Shown here in pieces: positions 21,896 to 33,231 of a stretch of 64,000 bases of DNA (its first letter is position 1; every line of letters starts with the position of its first letter). The position numbers and the translations under genes are program-made. Source of the DNA: an uncultured Bacteroidota bacterium (GTDB taxonomy: Bacteria; Bacteroidota; Bacteroidia; Flavobacteriales; Flavobacteriaceae); NCBI GenBank assembly GCA_902582405.1, contig CACHSA010000007.1, forward strand, positions 1 to 64,000, given 5' to 3'. The notes beneath the pieces are model-generated. The model was given only the letters and a program-made list of their open reading frames with translations. It was not told the DNA's origin and made no database searches.

Positions 21896-21967
21896 AGCTC
21901 TGTAGTTCAACGGATAGAACAAAAGTTTCCTAAACTTTAGATACAGGTTCGATTCCTGTCAGAGCTA
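21896..21967 (+). tRNA. tRNA-Arg (anticodon CCT)
   Basis: The 72-nt sequence folds as a complete cloverleaf: acceptor AGCTCTG/CAGAGCT (7 bp), D arm GTTC/GAAC, anticodon arm AAAGT/ACTTT with loop TTCCTAA (anticodon CCT at 21929-21931), and T arm ACAGG/CCTGT with loop TTCGATT. The 3' CCA is not encoded (TACAA follows). It decodes AGG. Its position just upstream of a tyrosine-recombinase-family gene makes it a classic integration-site candidate. Confidence 0.92.
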
Positions 21968-21975
21968 CAAAAAAA

Positions 21976-22049
21976 AGTGGGAAACAATAACCAAAACATG
22001 AAAAAATTAAAATGTATATATGTACAAAAAGAGAATTTTGTTTCCCACT
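21976..22049. repeat. Perfect 12-bp inverted repeat, 50-nt spacer, directly after tRNA-Arg
   Basis: AGTGGGAAACAA (21976-21987) and TTGTTTCCCACT (22038-22049) are exact reverse complements, starting 8 nt after the tRNA. The left arm is preceded by a run of A, so the minus strand would carry a T-run after the hairpin. The spacer is 50 nt and AT-rich, too long for a simple terminator. The GC-containing arms stand out against the AT-rich surroundings. Possible roles are a recombinase or host-factor site, or a remnant repeat of an element. Confidence 0.65.
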
Positions 22050-22204
22050 CAAAAAATATAGAGCAAAGTATGTGCCAAAGACAACAACATATGATATAAA
22101 ATAAATAATTTAATAAAAAAAAAAGAATTATAATATTATTAATATATATTTAAATACAGTAGTATTTCAACATTTATAATACTTTATTAAAAATAATAAA
22201 CATA

Positions 22205-22236
22205 TATTTGTTGTAAATTAAATTTTACAACAAATA
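22205..22236. promoter_or_regulatory. Perfect 13-bp hairpin before the degenerate recombinase gene
   Basis: TATTTGTTGTAAA (22205-22217) and TTTACAACAAATA (22224-22236) pair perfectly around a 6-nt loop, ending 6 nt before the TTG start at 22243. TATATTTG (22203-22210) overlaps the left arm and fits the Bacteroidota -7 box TAnnTTTG. A dyad over a promoter box suggests an operator, perhaps for autoregulation by the adjacent DNA-binding protein. As RNA it would form a leader hairpin close to the start codon. Confidence 0.5.
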
Positions 22237-22242
22237 AATAAT

Positions 22243-23358
22243 TTGAAAAAATTTTCAGCTCATTTTCATAAAAAAGCTAAAAAATGGTATATAAAGCATT
22301 ATTTTGGAAGCCTATTTATTGGGGAAAAATTAAACAAAAAAGGGAAATTAGTAAAAAGATATAGACAAAATTATAAGTTTGAATACCTAGACTTAGAGTG
22401 GATTGATAACCCACTTACAATGGAGCAAAAAGATATAAATCAAAAAACAAAAAACTTGATAGCTCGTAAACTTGAATATTTAGAGAATGAAGAGCTGATG
22501 AAAAGTAAAGAAAATTCAAAAAACCTTTTTTTTCCCTGGGCCTACAAATTCATTGAGCAGACCAAAAAAAAGACTAATTCGCCCAATTTTAAACCTGCAA
22601 TTGATTATTTCCTAACATTTACCTCTGAAAAACTTTTATTTAGCGACATAAATGAAAGAATATGTGATGAATTTAAAAAGTATCTAACAGAAGCGCCTCT
22701 TTCGCCCAGAGGACTATTAAAAGCTACAACTACGAAACAATATTTTGATCATTTTAAATTTATAATAAAAGTTTGTTTCATAAAAAAATTTATTAAAAAA
22801 AACTACAGTGAAAATATTTTTTTAAAAATTTATAATACTGATTTACAGAATTTTATACATATAAATGAAATAAAAGATTTAATTAAATCAAAGTCATCAC
22901 ACCCTTCAATCACTAATGCTTTTTTGTTTGGTTGCCTAACAGGCTTAGGAGAAAAAGAATTAAAAGATTTGGAGTGGTTAAATTTTGAAATTATTAATGG
23001 CACTTATTACTTAAATTTAAACAGAGCAGACAAAGTTTTTAAATTAAAGATTTCCAAAATGGCAATGGACTTTATCGGCAATCCACTTAAAGTAAGAGGC
23101 AAAGTTTATTTTAAACTAAAATCCACATACTACAGAAATTTAAAATTAAAGGAATGGCTCATTTCATGCAATATTTTTAAAAAAATTACATTTAAATCGT
23201 GTAAATATACTTTTGCCGCTAATTACCTTTTAAAATCTGAGGGTTTTGCTGAGCTTTCAAATAATTCTAAACCTTCATTGAGTGATTTATCAAAAATACT
23301 TGATCATAAAAAATTATATTTTACTAAAAATTTTGTTAAAAGAATTGATTTTAATTGA
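22243..23358 (+). CDS. Degenerate tyrosine recombinase-family protein (catalytic residues lost)
   Basis: 371 residues, TTG start. Domains in order: Arm DNA-binding type (YKFEYLDLEWIDNPLT...NQKTKNLIARKLEYLENEE, about 43-83), SAM-like core-binding domain (about 96-195) and a phage-integrase catalytic fold (about 205-371; FLFGCLTGLGEKELKDLEW). The active site is gone: Gly236 replaces Arg I of TGLR, Lys318, Lys321 and Tyr322 replace His-x-x-Arg-His (KSCKYTFA), and Phe364 replaces the nucleophilic Tyr (TKNF). Only the LGH-type His355 remains. The frame is intact and of normal length, so decay alone is a poor explanation. It may be retained as a DNA-binding protein. It lies 275 nt after tRNA-Arg(CCT). 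Confidence 0.8.
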   Translation: MKKFSAHFHKKAKKWYIKHYFGSLFIGEKLNKKGKLVKRYRQNYKFEYLDLEWIDNPLTMEQKDINQKTKNLIARKLEYLENEELMKSKENSKNLFFPWAYKFIEQTKKKTNSPNFKPAIDYFLTFTSEKLLFSDINERICDEFKKYLTEAPLSPRGLLKATTTKQYFDHFKFIIKVCFIKKFIKKNYSENIFLKIYNTDLQNFIHINEIKDLIKSKSSHPSITNAFLFGCLTGLGEKELKDLEWLNFEIINGTYYLNLNRADKVFKLKISKMAMDFIGNPLKVRGKVYFKLKSTYYRNLKLKEWLISCNIFKKITFKSCKYTFAANYLLKSEGFAELSNNSKPSLSDLSKILDHKKLYFTKNFVKRIDFN

Positions 23359-23430: not shown

Positions 23431-23604
23431 ATGATCAAAAGAAAGTTAGAATATTATCATTTTCCAGAGGGAGTTAAATCAATGTTTATTAATGGTAAAT
23501 ATTATTCTAGAAAAAAATTTCTTGAAGCCCGATCAAAAGAATTAAGAGCAAAAAAACAGCTAAGAGACAAAAATGGGAGGTTCAAAAAATTATTAGAAAC
23601 TTAG
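23431..23604 (+). CDS. 57-residue very basic protein of unknown function
   Basis: ATG-initiated frame 72 nt after the recombinase-like gene. The product (MIKRKLEYYHFPEGVKSMFI...) is rich in Lys and Arg, especially in RKKFLEARSKELRAKKQLRDKNGRFKK. The RDKNGRFKK tail resembles the RDxxGRFxK motif common in phage and mobile-element proteins that touch DNA. Sequence quality is better than a random AT-rich frame. It was probably part of the same former element as the recombinase. Role unknown. Confidence 0.6.
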   Translation: MIKRKLEYYHFPEGVKSMFINGKYYSRKKFLEARSKELRAKKQLRDKNGRFKKLLET

Positions 23605-25207: not shown

Positions 25208-25257
25208 AATTATATATTTTTACACGATTGATTTAAAAATTTATAGCTTTGAAATTA

Positions 25258-26886
25258 ATGAAAAAAATTAATAACGTTTTGGCATTTAGATTTTTATTTT
25301 TACTGCTAATTATATTGAGCTTAAGTTGTATTGATAATAAATCTTTAAAGTATCCCCCTAGTGTTGAAATTGTTCCAAACCCAAAAGAAGTATTTAAAAA
25401 TCAAAACAACGAAGCATTAAGCCTAAAAAATACTATTTCTGTTTTCATAAAAAGTGAAGACTCCAAAAAGTTTTTTGATTTGTTTGCCAGTGATCTTAAA
25501 TTAATTTTTTCTCAAAAATTATACTTTAAAAGATCGAACAAAATAAACTCTGATATAAGTTTTGTTATTGACAAAAGCTTAAATGTTGAAGAATATAAAA
25601 TTGAAATTGACAAAAATATTTCGGTTGTTGGAGGATCATACAATGCTATCACAATGGCAAAATCTTCATTAATTCAAATAATTAAGTTGAAAGATGAAAA
25701 TACTTTGATTTTACCAAAATCAAAGATTTATGACAAACCAGACTCTTCATATCGAGGATTAATGATTGACTTGTCTCGTATGTGGCATAACCTTGAGTCA
25801 ATCCGTAATGTTATTGACTTGGCAAGTTTATATAAAATTAAATATCTGCAGCTGCATTTATCTGATGATCAGGCCTTTGTTTTCCCTTCCGATGCTTTTC
25901 CAAACCTACCAACACCTGACAGACCTTACAACAAAAAAGATTTTATTCAATTGGTAGAATATGCTAAAGTTAGAGGGGTAACTATTATACCTGAAATTGA
26001 CGTCCCAGGTCATTCTAGACAATTTATTGAAACATATCCTGAAATTTTTGATGTTAGAAACGGAATAAAAAAATCAAATGTTATAAATATTGCCGATGAA
26101 AAAGTTTACAGTGCGCTTGACAAAATCATTGGTGAGGTTGCTAAAGTCTTTTATAACTCTCCTTATATTCATATGGGCGCAGATGAAGCAAAATTGGATC
26201 TTTATAAAAACGTAGCTAAGGTCAAGTCCTTTATGAATAAAAATAAATTAGGTGATGACATACATGAGTTATATAGGTACTTTATTGTAAGAATTAATGA
26301 AATTGTAAAAAAATACGATAAGCAGATGTTGGTATGGGAAGGATTTAGAAATGAAGGGAAAATCAAAATACCAAAAGATATAATCGTTTTTGAATTTGAA
26401 ACGCTTTATAACCATCCAAAAAATCTAATTGAAGATGGATATACCGTTGTAAATACCTCTTGGACACCACTTTATACTGTTTATGGTGGTGTTAAAAATA
26501 AAATGGCTCAAAGAGCAGTGTGGTCCCCAGAGAGTATATATAAGTGGAATAAATGGAGATGGGAACATTTTTCTAAAACCGTTCCTGGTTATAATCCAAT
26601 ACAATTAGAAGAAACGCCCCAGGTTATAGGAGGACAAATGTGCTCTTGGGAACAATCTGGAGATGCCGAGATACCTATTCTTCGCAAAAGACTTCCTGTT
26701 TTTGCTGAAAGAGTGTGGAATGATAAACCAAAAAAGTCTTTTGAAGAAATTTTTTCAACTATTGAAAGGACAGATAAAATTTTATCTTTAATCATAAAGG
26801 ATAATAGACAAGATTCTATTCTGATTGGATATAATTTTAAGAAAGACAGTTGTTTGTGGTGCGATCCTAATAAAGATGTTGATTAA
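25258..26886 (+). CDS. GH20 family protein, divergent type (copy 1)
   Basis: 542 residues from ATG 25258 (MKKINNV), 9 nt after an alternative TTG. Lipoprotein signal ending LSLSC. An N-terminal GH20b-like domain precedes the (beta/alpha)8 barrel: SYRGLMIDLSRMWH, LQLHLSDDQAF, EIDVPGHSRQF and HMGADEAKLDLY with the expected Asp309-Glu310 pair. It differs from classical hexosaminidases: HxGADE instead of HxGGDE, DDQAF instead of DDQGWR, and RMWH instead of RHFF. A beta-N-acetylhexosaminidase-like activity is likely, but the substrate may differ. About half its residues look shared with the copy at 38496. Confidence 0.87.
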   Translation: MKKINNVLAFRFLFLLLIILSLSCIDNKSLKYPPSVEIVPNPKEVFKNQNNEALSLKNTISVFIKSEDSKKFFDLFASDLKLIFSQKLYFKRSNKINSDISFVIDKSLNVEEYKIEIDKNISVVGGSYNAITMAKSSLIQIIKLKDENTLILPKSKIYDKPDSSYRGLMIDLSRMWHNLESIRNVIDLASLYKIKYLQLHLSDDQAFVFPSDAFPNLPTPDRPYNKKDFIQLVEYAKVRGVTIIPEIDVPGHSRQFIETYPEIFDVRNGIKKSNVINIADEKVYSALDKIIGEVAKVFYNSPYIHMGADEAKLDLYKNVAKVKSFMNKNKLGDDIHELYRYFIVRINEIVKKYDKQMLVWEGFRNEGKIKIPKDIIVFEFETLYNHPKNLIEDGYTVVNTSWTPLYTVYGGVKNKMAQRAVWSPESIYKWNKWRWEHFSKTVPGYNPIQLEETPQVIGGQMCSWEQSGDAEIPILRKRLPVFAERVWNDKPKKSFEEIFSTIERTDKILSLIIKDNRQDSILIGYNFKKDSCLWCDPNKDVD

Positions 26887-27597
26887 TCAAAACTGAAAAA
26901 CATCTTTTGTGTTGTATGAGTCCTTGTTTTTTTGGTTATTTATTAAAGTATTTTCCTTAAAACCAAACAAAAAAGCACCCTTTCGAGACGTAGACTTATC
27001 TTTTAAATTAGTTTTTTCAAGAACATTTAAGGAAAGGATTTTCTTTCTAAAATTCCTTGAATCAAATTTAGTGTTGTAAATACTTTCGTAAAGGGTTTGT
27101 AATTGTGGAAGGGTGAATAATTTAGGAAGTAATTCAAATCCTAGAGGTTGATCTTTAGCTATTTTTCTGAGCTCACTTAACGAATCATTAACCATCTCTT
27201 TGTGGTCCAAAAATAATTTGGGTAACTCATTAAGAGCAAACCATTTAGCATCTTTATTTTCAACCTTTTTAAGGCTAAGTTCATCAACTCTAATTAAACT
27301 AAAATAAACTATTGAAATAACTCTTTCCAAGGGATCTCTATCTAATTCTCCGTATGTTTTTAGCTGCTTTAAATAAATGTTCTCTAAACCAGTTAATTTG
27401 AAAAGGACATCACTAGCAGTCTTGTCTAGTGACAAATCATTCCCAATAACTTCCCCAACTAAAGACCATGCTCCTTTATGAGGATTTACTTTCCTTCTCC
27501 ATAACAATAAATTTAATTTCTCTGAATCAAAACCAAAAATCACACAATCAATAGCTACTGTAATTTCTTGACTGTTACTATACTTAGAATTTTTCAA
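26887..27597 (-). CDS. NrtR-like Nudix-domain transcriptional regulator
   Basis: 236 residues. The N-terminal Nudix fold (TVAIDCVIFGFDSEKLNLLLWRRKVNPHKGAWSLVGEVIG) is followed by a C-terminal winged-helix region (KLFTLPQLQTLYESIYNTKFDSRNFRKKILSLNVLE). The Nudix box is degenerate: the REUxEE part reads ASDVLFKLTGL, so the pyrophosphatase activity is probably lost. This is the layout of NrtR-type regulators, which in Bacteroidota control sugar or NAD catabolism. It sits between glycosidase genes and is convergent with the GH20 gene and divergent from the GH-A gene, so local control is likely. Confidence 0.88.
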   Translation of the reverse strand: MKNSKYSNSQEITVAIDCVIFGFDSEKLNLLLWRRKVNPHKGAWSLVGEVIGNDLSLDKTASDVLFKLTGLENIYLKQLKTYGELDRDPLERVISIVYFSLIRVDELSLKKVENKDAKWFALNELPKLFLDHKEMVNDSLSELRKIAKDQPLGFELLPKLFTLPQLQTLYESIYNTKFDSRNFRKKILSLNVLEKTNLKDKSTSRKGAFLFGFKENTLINNQKNKDSYNTKDVFQF

Positions 27598-27801
27598 AAT
27601 AAAGTTTTAAATTGTTAATATAAATAATAATTTTTAATTAACTAACATACAGATAATCAGCTAACTGGTTTGTATAAAAACTTTAATTATTAAATATTGG
27701 ATTAAAATTGATTTTCAGGCTAAATTTAATTATTTGAGATAAATCCATTTAATTATTGTCTTATTCAAAGTTTTTAAATAGATTGTAAAAAAACTAACAT
27801 T
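27598..27801. other. Divergent intergenic region (NrtR-like regulator / GH-A hydrolase)
   Basis: About 200 nt of very AT-rich DNA separate the divergent regulator and the first gene of the plus-strand glycosidase run. Both promoters must lie here. I do not see a convincing perfect palindrome or a full TTG/TAnnTTTG promoter, so no operator is claimed. It is the natural place to look for NrtR-like binding. Confidence 0.4.
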
Positions 27802-29031
27802 ATGAAACTATTTACCAGAACAACCTTGTCATCATTCATTTTGCTTTTACTTTCATGTAATACAAATATTGAAAAAAAAGATTTAAGATGGTCCAAGAAT
27901 AAAATACAGAATTGGTATGACAACCAACCTTGGCTTGTGGGTACTAATTTTATTACAAGCTCATCCATTAATCAACTTGAATTCTGGCAGGAGGAAAGTT
28001 TTGATATTGATTTAATTGAAAAAGAATTAAAACTATCTGCAAGCATTGGAATGAATACCCATCGTGTGTTTTTGCATGATTTGCTGTGGAAACAAGATTC
28101 GATTGGTTTTATGAATCGGATTGATCAATTTTTAAACATCGCCAACAAAAACGGTATCAAAACAATGCTTGTTTTTTTTGATGATGTATGGCATCCTTTC
28201 CCAAAAATTGGTAAACAACCAGAACCAATCCCACATATTCACAATTCTGGTTGGGTCCAATCGCCTGGAGTTGAAATTTTAACTAATATATATAGACACG
28301 ACGAACTTGAAGGATATGTCAAAGGTATTGTTTCAAACTTTAAAGATGATAAAAGAGTTTTATGCTGGGATTTGTATAATGAACCATCACAGCACAACGG
28401 AGCCCCAAGAGTTTCAAAAGAGAGGGTTTTTGAAATATACAAAAATATTGGAATTACGCTAACCGAAGAGGAATTGCCTCTTTACTACAGAGACAAAATG
28501 GAACCAACTGGGAAGGAAAAAAGGAAATATACTCTACCTCTATTAGAGAAAGCATTTGGTTGGGTTAGAGAGGTTAATCCTTCACAACCAGTGACAGTCG
28601 GAATATTCGACCACAGTAGACCTTGGGATAAATTTGAAGATCTTCTTCCACTTGAGCAGCTCATATTAAAAAACTCTGATTTTATTTCATATCACGGATA
28701 TGATAATCTTGAAGTTGAAATTAGTAGAATCAACCAGCTTAAAGTTTATGGAAGACCCATTGTTTGTACTGAATACGTTGCAAGAGAAAATGGTAATATT
28801 TTTGAAAATATGCTACCTCTTTTCAAAGAAAACCGGATAGGAGCATACAACTGGGGTTTTGTCTCTGGGAAAACAAATACAATTTATCCTTGGAAGAGTT
28901 GGGATTCAACTTACACCGGACCTCCTAAAAAATGGCACCATGACATTTTTTATCCAAACGGAGAGCCATTTTCAAACGAGGAAGTTGAATTGATAAAAAA
29001 TTTAACTGAATCTGTAAATGGTGCTGATTAA
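27802..29031 (+). CDS. Clan GH-A (GH5-like) glycoside hydrolase, lipoprotein
   Basis: 409 residues. Lipobox at LLLLSC (Cys19). FITSSSINQLEFWQEESFDIDLIEKELKLSASIGMNTHRVFLHDLLW opens a (beta/alpha)8 barrel. WDLYNEPS provides the predicted acid/base Glu194, and IVCTEYVARENG the predicted nucleophile Glu324, as in clan GH-A. It resembles proteins often labelled 1,4-beta-xylanase or cellulase family in Bacteroidota, but the substrate is not established. First of five co-directional glycan genes (GH-A, GH2, GH109, GH20, MGH1). Confidence 0.8.
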   Translation: MKLFTRTTLSSFILLLLSCNTNIEKKDLRWSKNKIQNWYDNQPWLVGTNFITSSSINQLEFWQEESFDIDLIEKELKLSASIGMNTHRVFLHDLLWKQDSIGFMNRIDQFLNIANKNGIKTMLVFFDDVWHPFPKIGKQPEPIPHIHNSGWVQSPGVEILTNIYRHDELEGYVKGIVSNFKDDKRVLCWDLYNEPSQHNGAPRVSKERVFEIYKNIGITLTEEELPLYYRDKMEPTGKEKRKYTLPLLEKAFGWVREVNPSQPVTVGIFDHSRPWDKFEDLLPLEQLILKNSDFISYHGYDNLEVEISRINQLKVYGRPIVCTEYVARENGNIFENMLPLFKENRIGAYNWGFVSGKTNTIYPWKSWDSTYTGPPKKWHHDIFYPNGEPFSNEEVELIKNLTESVNGAD

Positions 29032-29034
29032 ATA

Positions 29035-31833
29035 ATGAAATATTTTTTCCTTATAATATTGGGAATGAGTTTTGCTACAGGACAAATCCCTTTACCAGAA
29101 CACCCTAGACCCGATTTTAAAAGACCGCAGTGGATTAATTTGAATGGTACTTGGGAATTTAAATTCGATTCAAATGACATTGGTATTTCGAATAACTGGT
29201 TCAACTCCAAAACTAAATTTGAGAAGGAAATTAATGTTCCTTTTCCATGGGGTTCTAAACTTTCACAATTAAATGATGAAGCCGATATCGGATGGTATAA
29301 AAAAAAAATAATTGTACCTGAGAATTGGAAATCAAAAAAAACATATCTAACAATTGGCGCCTCTGACTGGGAAACAAGTATTTGGCTTGATGGTCAATTT
29401 ATTGGTAGTCACCAGGGTGGATATGTCCCCTTCTCATTTGATTTAACTCCCTTTTTAAAGTATGGAAAAGCCCAAAATCTTATTTTAAGAGTAGATGATG
29501 ATGCTGGAGATCCTAGAAAATTTAAACGAGGATATGCATTATATGGAAAACAGGGTTATGGAAACGCAAGAGGTATATGGCAAACTGTATATCTTGAAGC
29601 TAGGGGTAATAATTTTATTGATGCTGTTCATTTCACACCTGATATTGATAATAAGAAAGTAAATATCAAAACTTATCTCAATAAACATGCAACTAAGGAA
29701 TTGTCTTTAAATATTAAAATTAAAACTGAAAACGGATTTATTGAAAAGAATACAAGTATCAAAACAGGCCAGCTAAAAATGAGTTTTGATATAGATATTC
29801 AGGAAATGAGATTATGGACCTTAGATGATCCTTATTTATATGAAGTTAAAGTTAAGCTTGGTAATGACATTGTAGAATCTTATTTTGGAATGCGTAAAAT
29901 TTCTACAATGAATTTACCAGGAACTGAGCATCCATATGTTGCTTTAAATAATAAACCAATATACCTTCAATTAGCTTTAGATCAGTCATATCACCCTGAT
30001 GGATATTATACGTTCCCCACTGATAAGTTTATGAAAGAAGAAATTCTCAGGAGTAAATCAATTGGATTAAACGGGATAAGAGTACATATAAAGTTAGAAG
30101 TTCCAAGAAAATTGTATTGGGCAGACAAATTGGGGATTTTAGTAGTTGAAGATCTACCAAACTCATGGGGGGAACCAGATAAATTTATGAGGAATGAGTC
30201 TGAGTATACATTAGAAGAAATGATCAAAAGAGATTACAATCATCCCTCAATATTTTCTTGGGTTATTTTCAACGAACAATGGGGTTTAAAAACAAAAGAT
30301 GAAAATAATAATGAAAATATTCTTCCTGAGACATATAATTGGATAACATCTATGTATTACAAAGCAAAGGGTTTAGACCAATCAAGATTGATTGAGGACA
30401 ATTCGCTGTGCTGCGGAGGCTTGCACACTGCTACAGATTTAAACTCATGGCACGCCTATTTACCTGGATATGATTGGGAAGACTATTTAAAAGATCAGGT
30501 TGAAAAAAACTTTAAAGGTGGAAATCATTTATATTATAATGGATTCAAACAAGAGAATCAGCCTTTTTTAAACTCTGAATGTGGTAATGTTTGGGGATAC
30601 AGTGGAAGCACTGGAGATGTAGATTGGAGTTATGATTACCATAGAATGATAAATAGCTTTAGAAAATTTCCTGAAGTCGCTGGTTGGCTATACACTGAAC
30701 ATCATGATGTCATAAATGAATGGAATGGGTACTGGAAATATGACAGAAGTGAGAAAGATACAGGATTAAACGATATATTTAATGGTATGAGCTTAAATGA
30801 CTTTCACTCAGATGTTTATGTATCTAATGGCGGTGATATAACTCGGACTGTTAAGGGTAATGAAAATATAGAAATACCAATCTATCTGTCTTCAATGACT
30901 AATAAAAATTATGGTAACGAACTATTCTTACATTATCAAATGCTTCACTTAGACTACTTGGGAATTGAAAAGGAAATTGATAAAGGAGTACTAAAGATTG
31001 ACTATTCTCCTTGGATGAATCAACCCATCTCTCCTTTGAAAATAAAGACCCCTAAATACTCTGGACTATCAAAGATTAATTTTACACTGAAAGACAAAGG
31101 GGGTAAAATTATTCATAGAAATTTTATGCATTTAGTTGTAAAATCTCAATTTAAAATACCAAAGACATTGGTTTACTCAATTCCTGTCAAGGAATATTCG
31201 TCATCTAAGTGGAGTAAAAGAAAATGGGAGGTACTAGATGGACTTAAAGTAAACGGAACCGGTAAAGGCTTTTTTGAATTTAAAATATCAGTTCCGTCAA
31301 ATTTAGACTTGGCTGGCAACGAAGAAGCTTACTTCTTTGTTGAGGCGTCATCTAAGAGACTTTATGACAAAGACAAGGAAAAAGAATATGAAGAAACAGG
31401 AATCGACTATATGAGAGGTTCAAAGGTTAGTCCCCACAAAAATCCAAATTCTTATCCAATGACAGATGAAATTATGTTTCCTTCCGAAATTAATGTATCG
31501 GTTAACGGTAAAAATAAATTGAACACAGTTTTATCTGATGATCCTGCTGATCACAGAGGAATACTTTCTTGGCACAATCAAATTAGACCTGCAGGCAAGG
31601 TTACAGATAAGGATTATTCGGAAAAACAACGTATGTTAAATGAGGCTGGGTCATATGGATACTTGGTAAAAGTTCCAATTTCTAATGAAGAATTAACTGA
31701 ATGTAAACAAAATGGATTCATAAAAGTTATTCTTGAAACAACTGGCGAAGGCGGAATGGCTATTTATGGAAAAGATTTTGGACGTTATCCATTTGATCCT
31801 TCATTAGTAATTATAAAAAAAGTAGAATTATAA
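29035..31833 (+). CDS. Glycoside hydrolase family 2 protein
   Basis: 932 residues, signal peptide ending FATGQ. An N-terminal sugar-binding jelly roll (RPQWINLNGTWEFKFDSND ... FPWGSKLSQLNDEADIGWYKKKI) is followed by an Ig-like domain and a catalytic barrel. SWVIFNEQWG carries acid/base Glu414 and NSECGNVWGY the nucleophile Glu515. A C-terminal extra beta region (about 640-932) is present. GH2 members include beta-galactosidases, mannosidases, glucuronidases and more, so the specificity is open. It starts 3 nt after the GH-A stop. Confidence 0.88.
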   Translation: MKYFFLIILGMSFATGQIPLPEHPRPDFKRPQWINLNGTWEFKFDSNDIGISNNWFNSKTKFEKEINVPFPWGSKLSQLNDEADIGWYKKKIIVPENWKSKKTYLTIGASDWETSIWLDGQFIGSHQGGYVPFSFDLTPFLKYGKAQNLILRVDDDAGDPRKFKRGYALYGKQGYGNARGIWQTVYLEARGNNFIDAVHFTPDIDNKKVNIKTYLNKHATKELSLNIKIKTENGFIEKNTSIKTGQLKMSFDIDIQEMRLWTLDDPYLYEVKVKLGNDIVESYFGMRKISTMNLPGTEHPYVALNNKPIYLQLALDQSYHPDGYYTFPTDKFMKEEILRSKSIGLNGIRVHIKLEVPRKLYWADKLGILVVEDLPNSWGEPDKFMRNESEYTLEEMIKRDYNHPSIFSWVIFNEQWGLKTKDENNNENILPETYNWITSMYYKAKGLDQSRLIEDNSLCCGGLHTATDLNSWHAYLPGYDWEDYLKDQVEKNFKGGNHLYYNGFKQENQPFLNSECGNVWGYSGSTGDVDWSYDYHRMINSFRKFPEVAGWLYTEHHDVINEWNGYWKYDRSEKDTGLNDIFNGMSLNDFHSDVYVSNGGDITRTVKGNENIEIPIYLSSMTNKNYGNELFLHYQMLHLDYLGIEKEIDKGVLKIDYSPWMNQPISPLKIKTPKYSGLSKINFTLKDKGGKIIHRNFMHLVVKSQFKIPKTLVYSIPVKEYSSSKWSKRKWEVLDGLKVNGTGKGFFEFKISVPSNLDLAGNEEAYFFVEASSKRLYDKDKEKEYEETGIDYMRGSKVSPHKNPNSYPMTDEIMFPSEINVSVNGKNKLNTVLSDDPADHRGILSWHNQIRPAGKVTDKDYSEKQRMLNEAGSYGYLVKVPISNEELTECKQNGFIKVILETTGEGGMAIYGKDFGRYPFDPSLVIIKKVEL

Positions 31834-31845
31834 TAAATTTTAGAT

Positions 31846-33231
31846 ATGAAACGAAGAAAATTTATCAATCAAGCTTCCATTGCAGGGCTATCCTTTAGTG
31901 GATTTCATCTTCTAAACTCATGTGAAACAGACATAAAAAATAATAATCAGACATATATGGGAGGCTTTAAAGCCAATCCAATACGTGAAATAAAAGCGGC
32001 ATTTGTGGGTGTTGGAGATAGAGGGCGAATCCATGCAAGAAACTTTAATAGTTTTCAAGGAACTAAAATTGTAGGAGTTTCTGACCTATACGAAGCTCGG
32101 GTTAAGGAAACCATTAGCTCTTTAAAAGCAGAAAAATCTATTAAGGGCTATTGGGGTAAAGACAACTTGTGGATAAAAATGATTGAGGAAACACATCCTG
32201 ATGTCGTTTTTATTTCAACTAATTGGGATAATCATGCTTCGATGGCTATAAAGTCCATGGAGCTTGGCTCACATGCTCTTGTAGAGGTACCGCTGGCAAA
32301 CACAATTGAAGACCTTTGGGGAATTGTTAATGCCTCTGAGAAAACACGTAAACATTGCATGATGCTCGAAAACGTAAATTATGGTAGAGAAGAGTTAATG
32401 TTTTTAAATATATGCAGAAAAGGATTAATTGGAGAACTAATCCACGGAGAAGCATCTTATATTCATGACTTAAGGGGCCAAATGTTTCAAAAGGATGAAA
32501 CTTCTTTCGATGGTTACCCTGGAACGGGTTCTTGGAGAACAAGACAATATGCAAAAAATATCGGAAACTTATACCCAACCCATGGACTTGGTCCGGTAGC
32601 CCAATATATGAGTCTAGCCAGAAAGGAAGACAACTTTATGAAGATAGTTTCTTTATCATCACCCTCTAAAGGAAGATATTTGATGGCCAAAAAATATTTC
32701 GATAAAAATCACGAATGGAATAATTTAGAATTTAAAAATGGTGACATAAATACTTCTATAATTCAAACAACTTACGGAAAAACCATTATGATTCAATGGG
32801 ATGAGACAAGTCCCAGGCCATATACTCGACATAATCTTATACAGGGAACAAAGGGTGCACTTGCTGGTTTTCCAACAAGAGTTTTTTTTGACTCTAAAGA
32901 GAACCAAAATTCAATAGGTTACTTTCCCTGGATTGAGGGAAAAGATTTATTAGAGATTTATGAGAAATACGATCACCCTCTTTACCAGAAACTGAACAAA
33001 AAAACTGCTGACAGTGGTCATGGAGGTATGGACGGCATAATGATGTACAGAGTTATAGAATGTTTACAAAAAGGTGAACCACTTGATCAAAATGTTTACG
33101 AAGGAGCATTTTGGAGTGCTGTGACGCCCTTAAGTGCAAAATCCATTGATACCGGAGGAAATCCTCAAAAATTTCCAGATTTTACAAGAGGAAAATGGAA
33201 AAATACAGAACCCCTTGGAATTATTGTTTAA
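31846..33231 (+). CDS. GH109-like NAD-dependent glycosidase (Gfo/Idh/MocA family)
   Basis: 461 residues. The N-terminus is a Tat-like or lipoprotein signal (MKRRKFINQASIAGLSF ... LLNSC). AAFVGVGDRGRIHARNF is the NAD-binding fold. HALVEVPLANTIEDLWGIVNASEKTRKHCMMLENVNYGREELMFLNICRKGLIGELIHGEASYIHDLRG and NLYPTHGLGPVAQYM match GH109, which cleaves alpha-N-acetylgalactosaminides through transient NAD oxidation. Other Gfo/Idh/MocA oxidoreductases differ in these blocks. It fits the HexNAc theme of the locus, but activity is inferred. Confidence 0.85.
   Translation: MKRRKFINQASIAGLSFSGFHLLNSCETDIKNNNQTYMGGFKANPIREIKAAFVGVGDRGRIHARNFNSFQGTKIVGVSDLYEARVKETISSLKAEKSIKGYWGKDNLWIKMIEETHPDVVFISTNWDNHASMAIKSMELGSHALVEVPLANTIEDLWGIVNASEKTRKHCMMLENVNYGREELMFLNICRKGLIGELIHGEASYIHDLRGQMFQKDETSFDGYPGTGSWRTRQYAKNIGNLYPTHGLGPVAQYMSLARKEDNFMKIVSLSSPSKGRYLMAKKYFDKNHEWNNLEFKNGDINTSIIQTTYGKTIMIQWDETSPRPYTRHNLIQGTKGALAGFPTRVFFDSKENQNSIGYFPWIEGKDLLEIYEKYDHPLYQKLNKKTADSGHGGMDGIMMYRVIECLQKGEPLDQNVYEGAFWSAVTPLSAKSIDTGGNPQKFPDFTRGKWKNTEPLGIIV

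Follow-up and report, generated by a model that had tools for sequence, protein, structure and literature searches.

Organization of the tRNA-Arg(CCT) locus

The window analyzed here, a stretch of 64,000 nucleotides from an uncultured Flavobacteriaceae bacterium (contig CACHSA010000007.1), contains a tRNA-Arg(CCT) gene followed by a conserved hairpin-forming block, a perfect palindrome that overlaps a promoter element, and a gene for a tyrosine-recombinase (integrase) protein with an altered active site (Table 1). The coding span of the integrase gene is window 22243–23355, and its start codon, TTG, is the same in orthologues across the genus. A sequence-only reading of this DNA had described the frame as free of stops, frameshifts and shortening; the frame is indeed intact, and no stops occur in any of five genomes, but the protein is shortened, ending 7 residues past Phe364 where active relatives extend by roughly 20–25 residues.

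Table 1. Features of the tRNA-Arg(CCT) locus, with positions given in the window
Feature	Position	Strand	Evidence
tRNA-Arg(CCT), intact, likely ancestral attachment locus	21896..21968	+	ARAGORN; same position in the loci of four relatives
Conserved block of 74 bp downstream of the tRNA; stem GTGGGAAAC(A/T)A ... T(T/A)GTTTCCCAC, conserved loop of ~50 nt	21976..22049	+	Conservation, RNA fold
TATATTTG, Bacteroidota -7 promoter element (TAnnTTTG), overlapping the left arm of the palindrome	22203..22210	+	Invariant in 5/5; consensus from PMC7366714
Perfect palindrome TTTGTTGTAAA-TTAAAT-TTTACAACAAA, 11-6-11, candidate operator or core-type binding site	22207..22234	.	Conservation, uniqueness per genome
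Tyrosine-recombinase (integrase) gene, predicted to be recombinase-dead	22243..23358	+	Pfam, AlphaFold, Foldseek, orthologues, dN/dS
Arg261 codon, relocated ArgI (retained); Asp263 replaces the catalytic Lys	23023..23025	+	Alignment of 84 recombinases; PMC8138268
Altered active-site box TFKSCKYTFAANY, aa 316-328, HxxRH to KSCKY	23188..23226	+	Longest invariant run, five orthologues
Phe364 codon, replacing the nucleophilic Tyr	23332..23334	+	Fixed in 5/5

Overall fold

The SAM-like core-binding domain PF13102 is the sole Pfam match in the protein (1e-10, aa 96–189), and the catalytic domain, which has drifted below Pfam detection, was recovered by AlphaFold. Using five orthologues together with 46 integrases from viral contigs as input, we obtained a model with a pLDDT of 89 (the five orthologues alone gave 47), in which an N-terminal beta Arm domain (aa ~1–50), consisting of a three-stranded sheet plus a helix, is joined by a linker helix to the core-binding domain and a catalytic-fold domain (aa ~205–371). 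A Foldseek search against the PDB returned 22 matches at E ≤ 0.001, and the best 30 are tyrosine recombinases throughout; the closest are XerH-difH, lambda Int on core DNA and Tn1549 Int, and XerA and Cre are also present. As judged by AlphaFold, Foldseek and PF13102, the protein thus has the core-binding and catalytic fold of the tyrosine recombinase superfamily, in agreement with the Arm, SAM-like and catalytic domains that had been read from the sequence. Compared with its relatives it has ~11 additional residues, inserted after the HxxRH box and ahead of the LGH motif. The modeled fold and the basic pI (predicted value 9.7) are compatible with DNA binding.

Active-site residues

In the position of the HxxRH box the protein reads KSCKY (aa 318–322), and alignment assigns Lys318 to HisII, Lys321 to ArgII and Phe364 to the nucleophilic tyrosine, all three of which are fixed in the five orthologues. 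His355 of the LGH motif is retained, with LxH present in 5/5. The Lys318-x-x-Lys321-Tyr322 box, Phe364 and the preserved His355 had all been identified correctly by the sequence-only reading, which erred in two respects: it took the catalytic arginine to be lost as Gly236, and it stated that every catalytic residue had been replaced. The ArgI position carries the motif TGL[G/S] in 5/5, with Gly236 here and Gly or Ser among the orthologues. A trait of the CTnDOT subgroup is that ArgI is supplied from farther downstream (PMC8138268), and in our alignment of 84 recombinases relatives with Ala, Gly or Ser at ArgI have an Arg in an xRxKT segment, without exception for those with Ala or Gly. Since the corresponding residue, Arg261, is invariant in 5/5, Gly236 does not represent a loss; absence of ArgI is ruled out, and both the relocated Arg261 and His355 remain. 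The catalytic Lys position, two residues past the relocated Arg, is occupied by Asp263 here and by Asn in the four other orthologues, and is a further loss, additional to the residue changes reported earlier.

Compared with the R-K-H-R-H pentad plus Tyr of an active tyrosine recombinase, only Arg261 and His355 are thus kept. Loss of ArgII or Tyr was seen neither among ~79 other aligned Bacteroidota integrases (one of them truncated in the alignment) nor among 61 integrases from viral contigs. Two of the losses each abolish strand cleavage in studied recombinases, and we therefore infer from the Tyr to Phe and ArgII to Lys replacements and the loss of Lys that the protein is recombination-dead.

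Orthologues, synteny and selection

Orthologues at 69–74% identity are present in five of the seven genomes of the genus, so that the sample comprises only five sequences, all from incomplete or single-cell/metagenome assemblies. The two genomes without the gene (G003 and G004) are uninformative on its absence, because they are 65–67% complete and have no tRNA-Arg match either. In four relatives the order, as far as the contigs reach, is nadC-nadA-groES-hyp, tRNA-Arg(CCT), the integrase gene, a 57-aa sORF, a gene for a 140-aa protein, galM and a GH20-like gene. The dN/dS of the integrase gene is 0.11–0.22 over ten pairs (dS 0.3–1.5), which lies within the range of the surrounding genes nadC, galM and hyp. 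Among the five orthologues no invariant run of the protein is longer than the altered active-site box, and a further invariant stretch, aa 9–20, falls within the retained Arm domain. The sequence-only reading had suggested both a search for orthologues at the same tRNA with fixed substitutions and an estimate of dN/dS; all orthologues share the K/K/F substitutions, and together with the dN/dS values this rejects simple decay.

No closer homologue was found in viral contigs, phages and plasmids gave only matches of <30% identity, and in 400 family genomes and 396 phylum genomes nothing outside the genus was better than ~1e-33; these best outside matches retain the catalytic His-x-x-Arg-His box and the Tyr. 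In the tree, a single long stem of 2.4 changes per site leads to the dead clade, whose tips are short, and the clade joins an integrase of another genus, a placement that carries a long-branch warning. This neighbour is located at the 3' end of mnmE, with the relocated Arg, Lys, HxxRH and Tyr intact. The data fit a single catalytic loss followed by long maintenance, where the catalytic residues were probably lost before the genus diversified and the gene has apparently been kept intact beside the same tRNA since. Domestication of a catalytically dead integrase is thus well supported. An att duplication of the tRNA 3' end was not found within the window, and outgroups were discarded as examples of an empty site, their tRNA-Arg(CCT) having unrelated neighbours.

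Several other genes were recorded in the course of this comparison. The 57-aa sORF downstream of the integrase gene (window 23431–23604; MIKRKLEYYHFPEGVKSMF...) has a dN/dS of 0.015–0.10 in the genus and no Pfam family; it was rejected as a partner of the integrase, being present in a few other flavobacterial genera that lack the integrase gene. Next to galM, window 25249–33231 contains carbohydrate genes, named by eye from sequence as hexosaminidase-like, Nudix regulator-like, glycosidase-like (two) and oxidoreductase-like, a block that seems to resemble a polysaccharide-use locus. The intact integrase at the 3' end of mnmE (trmE) that neighbours the dead clade in the tree (L099, 641–1849, minus strand) comes from another marine flavobacterial genus; it carries the relocated Arg, has a small helix-turn-helix gene close by, and is the nearest active-looking relative of the clade. 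Finally, two species of the genus share a near-identical tyrosine recombinase with LLRPHREV instead of TGLR (L100, 4252–5301, and L101, 4008–5084, both minus strand), which adjoins type I restriction-modification genes; other orthologues of the two species are far more diverged, and the locus looks like a recently exchanged defence element.

Promoter palindrome

The palindrome is 28 bp long and ends 8 bp ahead of the start codon of the integrase gene. Across the five species 21 of its 22 arm columns are invariant, as are none of the six central columns, and its length is fixed at 28 bp; in the 150-bp spacer preceding it, 48 of 150 columns are invariant (arms versus spacer, Fisher p ~1e-8). Fixed half-sites, a free centre and a constant length form the pattern expected of a dimer site of the recombinase type. 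The palindrome is the sole match at up to 3 mismatches in each of the five genomes, and no second copy was found at this threshold in seven genomes, which speaks against a regulon or a dif site. A single occurrence per genome points to a dedicated local binder, and for this reason the product of the adjacent gene is the probable candidate.

In Flavobacterium johnsoniae the -7 element has been confirmed and the -33 element has not (PMC7366714), and upstream of the integrase gene we found no clear -33 element. Because TATATTTG fits the -7 element over the left arm, the transcript is expected to start inside the palindrome, which favours a DNA operator over an RNA hairpin. An mRNA hairpin is unlikely: most of the left arm, which overlaps the -7 box, would precede the start of the transcript, and the sole arm change (in L021) is uncompensated.

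Hairpin block beside the tRNA

Between the tRNA and the palindrome, 66 of the 74 columns of the conserved block are invariant, and the block is 95–99% identical among the five genomes while the adjacent spacer drifts. Among 60 genomes searched it occurs only in the five that bear the integrase gene and is lacking from the other 55. A stem of 11–13 bp is possible (RNA fold z ~ -4), with one compensatory pair change at a pair that is broken in another sequence; the loop is as conserved as the arms, and eight T (T8) follow the hairpin when the minus strand is read. The block has no Rfam match, and a short peptide encoded within it (MKKLKCIYVQKEN..) was dismissed since a single base disrupts its frame in L024. 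Candidate roles for the block are a small RNA, an element for processing or termination close to the tRNA, and a binding region of the Arm type.

A proposed autoregulator

Based on these observations, we propose, with a probability of roughly 55%, that a dead CTnDOT-type integrase has been domesticated as a sequence-specific DNA-binding (auto)repressor acting at the palindrome in its own promoter. A recombinase of the CTnDOT type, with relocated ArgI, would have entered at tRNA-Arg(CCT); the mobile element and the chemistry would then have been lost once, ahead of the divergence of the five species, and the protein would have been retained for its sequence-specific binding to DNA. A dimer of it would most likely bind the 11-6-11 palindrome, which has the geometry of a recombinase core site, and because this site covers the -7 element and the probable transcript start of the same gene, binding would repress the gene's own expression. 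In addition, the Arm domain might engage the conserved tRNA-proximal block, or the protein might act at weaker sites. Orthology, synteny, fixed substitutions, purifying selection, the fold and a unique conserved palindrome over the -7 box are directly supported by the comparisons above; binding to the palindrome and autorepression are presumed, and are plausible in view of two precedents. KplE1 IntS represses its own gene, negative autoregulation is common among tRNA-linked integrase genes with binding sites overlapping the promoter, and most tRNA-linked integrase genes are predicted to be autoregulated (PMC2951348); MrpR of SPbeta is a repressor with the tyrosine recombinase fold in which recombination has been lost (PMC10516654).

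The sequence-only reading had envisaged a domesticated element serving as regulator, att-site occupier or silencer. Domestication stands, and among the three functions the (auto)regulator is favoured because the palindrome overlaps the promoter, with binding assumed. Against the autorepressor reading, the palindrome could have another protein as its binder, a single-copy operator brings no obvious downstream benefit, the -33 element is not evident, and the orthologues are few and from partial assemblies. A more far-reaching version, which we consider tentative and rather improbable, is that the protein bridges the core-like promoter palindrome and the 74-bp hairpin element beside tRNA-Arg as a fossil intasome: a stand-alone chromosomal regulator derived from an Arm-type integrase, controlling transcription of the tRNA/gene locus and fixed across a genus of marine flavobacteria with small genomes.

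Alternative explanations

The retained Arm domain with its invariant aa 9–20, and the strong conservation of the tRNA-gene block and its co-occurrence with the gene, would also suit a protein that mainly occupies or insulates the tRNA-Arg attachment region. Such a protein would bind the block through Arm sites and the palindrome as a core site, blocking re-entry of related elements or shielding the tRNA, with autorepression as a side effect. We consider this unlikely, since no repeated arm-type motif was identified in the block, its loop is as conserved as its arms and hence more RNA-like, and no related invading element was found at the tRNA-Arg site in the genus. A role in DNA structure or architecture (bending or looping DNA, or serving as an accessory subunit of another recombinase such as XerCD) in place of transcription control draws on the ability of tyrosine recombinases to bend DNA as dimers and tetramers and on TnsF, an inactive recombinase that serves another machinery (PMC10293859). 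This role is quite improbable considering that the sole matching site lies at the gene's own promoter, that the C-terminal tail past Phe364 is mostly lost, and that no partner gene adjoins except the sORF, which other genera carry without the integrase gene.

Retained chemistry is very doubtful. Arg261, His355, Tyr359 and Tyr322 are invariant across the five orthologues and the palindrome has core-site geometry, so that an active recombinase with an unusual site could be imagined, in which Tyr359 or Tyr322 acts as nucleophile, Lys321 substitutes for ArgII and Arg261 for ArgI; however, the catalytic Lys position holds Asp or Asn, there is no second site copy to recombine with, and the window lacks an att duplication of the tRNA end. 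The least credible explanation is slow decay of a former integrase that is intact by chance: the long stem branch and the lost catalytic residues would be expected, but dN/dS is low over pairs with dS up to 1.5, five genomes are without stops, and conservation peaks at the altered box itself. The dN/dS values and the five intact orthologues lead us to reject simple decay.

Comparison with known systems

MrpR (YopR), the master repressor of Bacillus subtilis prophage SPbeta (PMC10516654), resembles the autorepressor proposed here in that a tyrosine-recombinase fold with several replaced catalytic residues serves as a non-recombining DNA-binding repressor; in our protein the fold is likewise retained, and loss of activity is deduced from its residues. 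In contrast, MrpR keeps Tyr304 and Lys169, whereas the dead integrase has neither the Tyr nor the Lys; MrpR is without an Arm domain; and MrpR is a prophage protein with many SPBRE repeats as its binding sites, while the dead integrase stands alone at a tRNA with one conserved candidate site per genome. 8A0A is absent among the Foldseek matches listed, and the likeness to MrpR is one of function only. KplE1 IntS shares the position beside a tRNA gene (argW for IntS) and a promoter overlapped by a binding region, here a candidate, and is negatively autoregulated (PMC2951348), but IntS is active in recombination and it is the attL sites that overlap its promoter, whereas the dead integrase lacks the chemistry and has a separate symmetric palindrome.

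With the IntCTnDOT subgroup (PMC8138268) the protein shares the Arm (AB), core-binding (CB) and catalytic domains, where the Arm sheet and helix of the AlphaFold model lie upstream of the PF13102 region, and an ArgI replaced by a downstream Arg (Gly236/Ser, with invariant Arg261); it differs by the loss of ArgII, HisII, Lys and Tyr and by its short C-terminal tail. TnsF of Tn6022 likewise derives from a tyrosine recombinase that was inactivated, and it now binds DNA sequence-specifically (PMC10293859), but unlike the dead integrase it contains zinc fingers and two CB domains, its CAT domain is partial, and it has a transposon partner, TniQ. Regulators derived from inactive recombinases are known (MrpR, TnsF); the present candidate is set apart by its Arm-domain CTnDOT type, the additional loss of the Tyr nucleophile, its solitary place in the chromosome and its fixation across the sampled members of a genus. 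The locus is a clean example of the passage from integrase to host gene: no part of the protein is better conserved than its dead active site, which is fixed, and the promoter carries a candidate operator built like a recombinase site.
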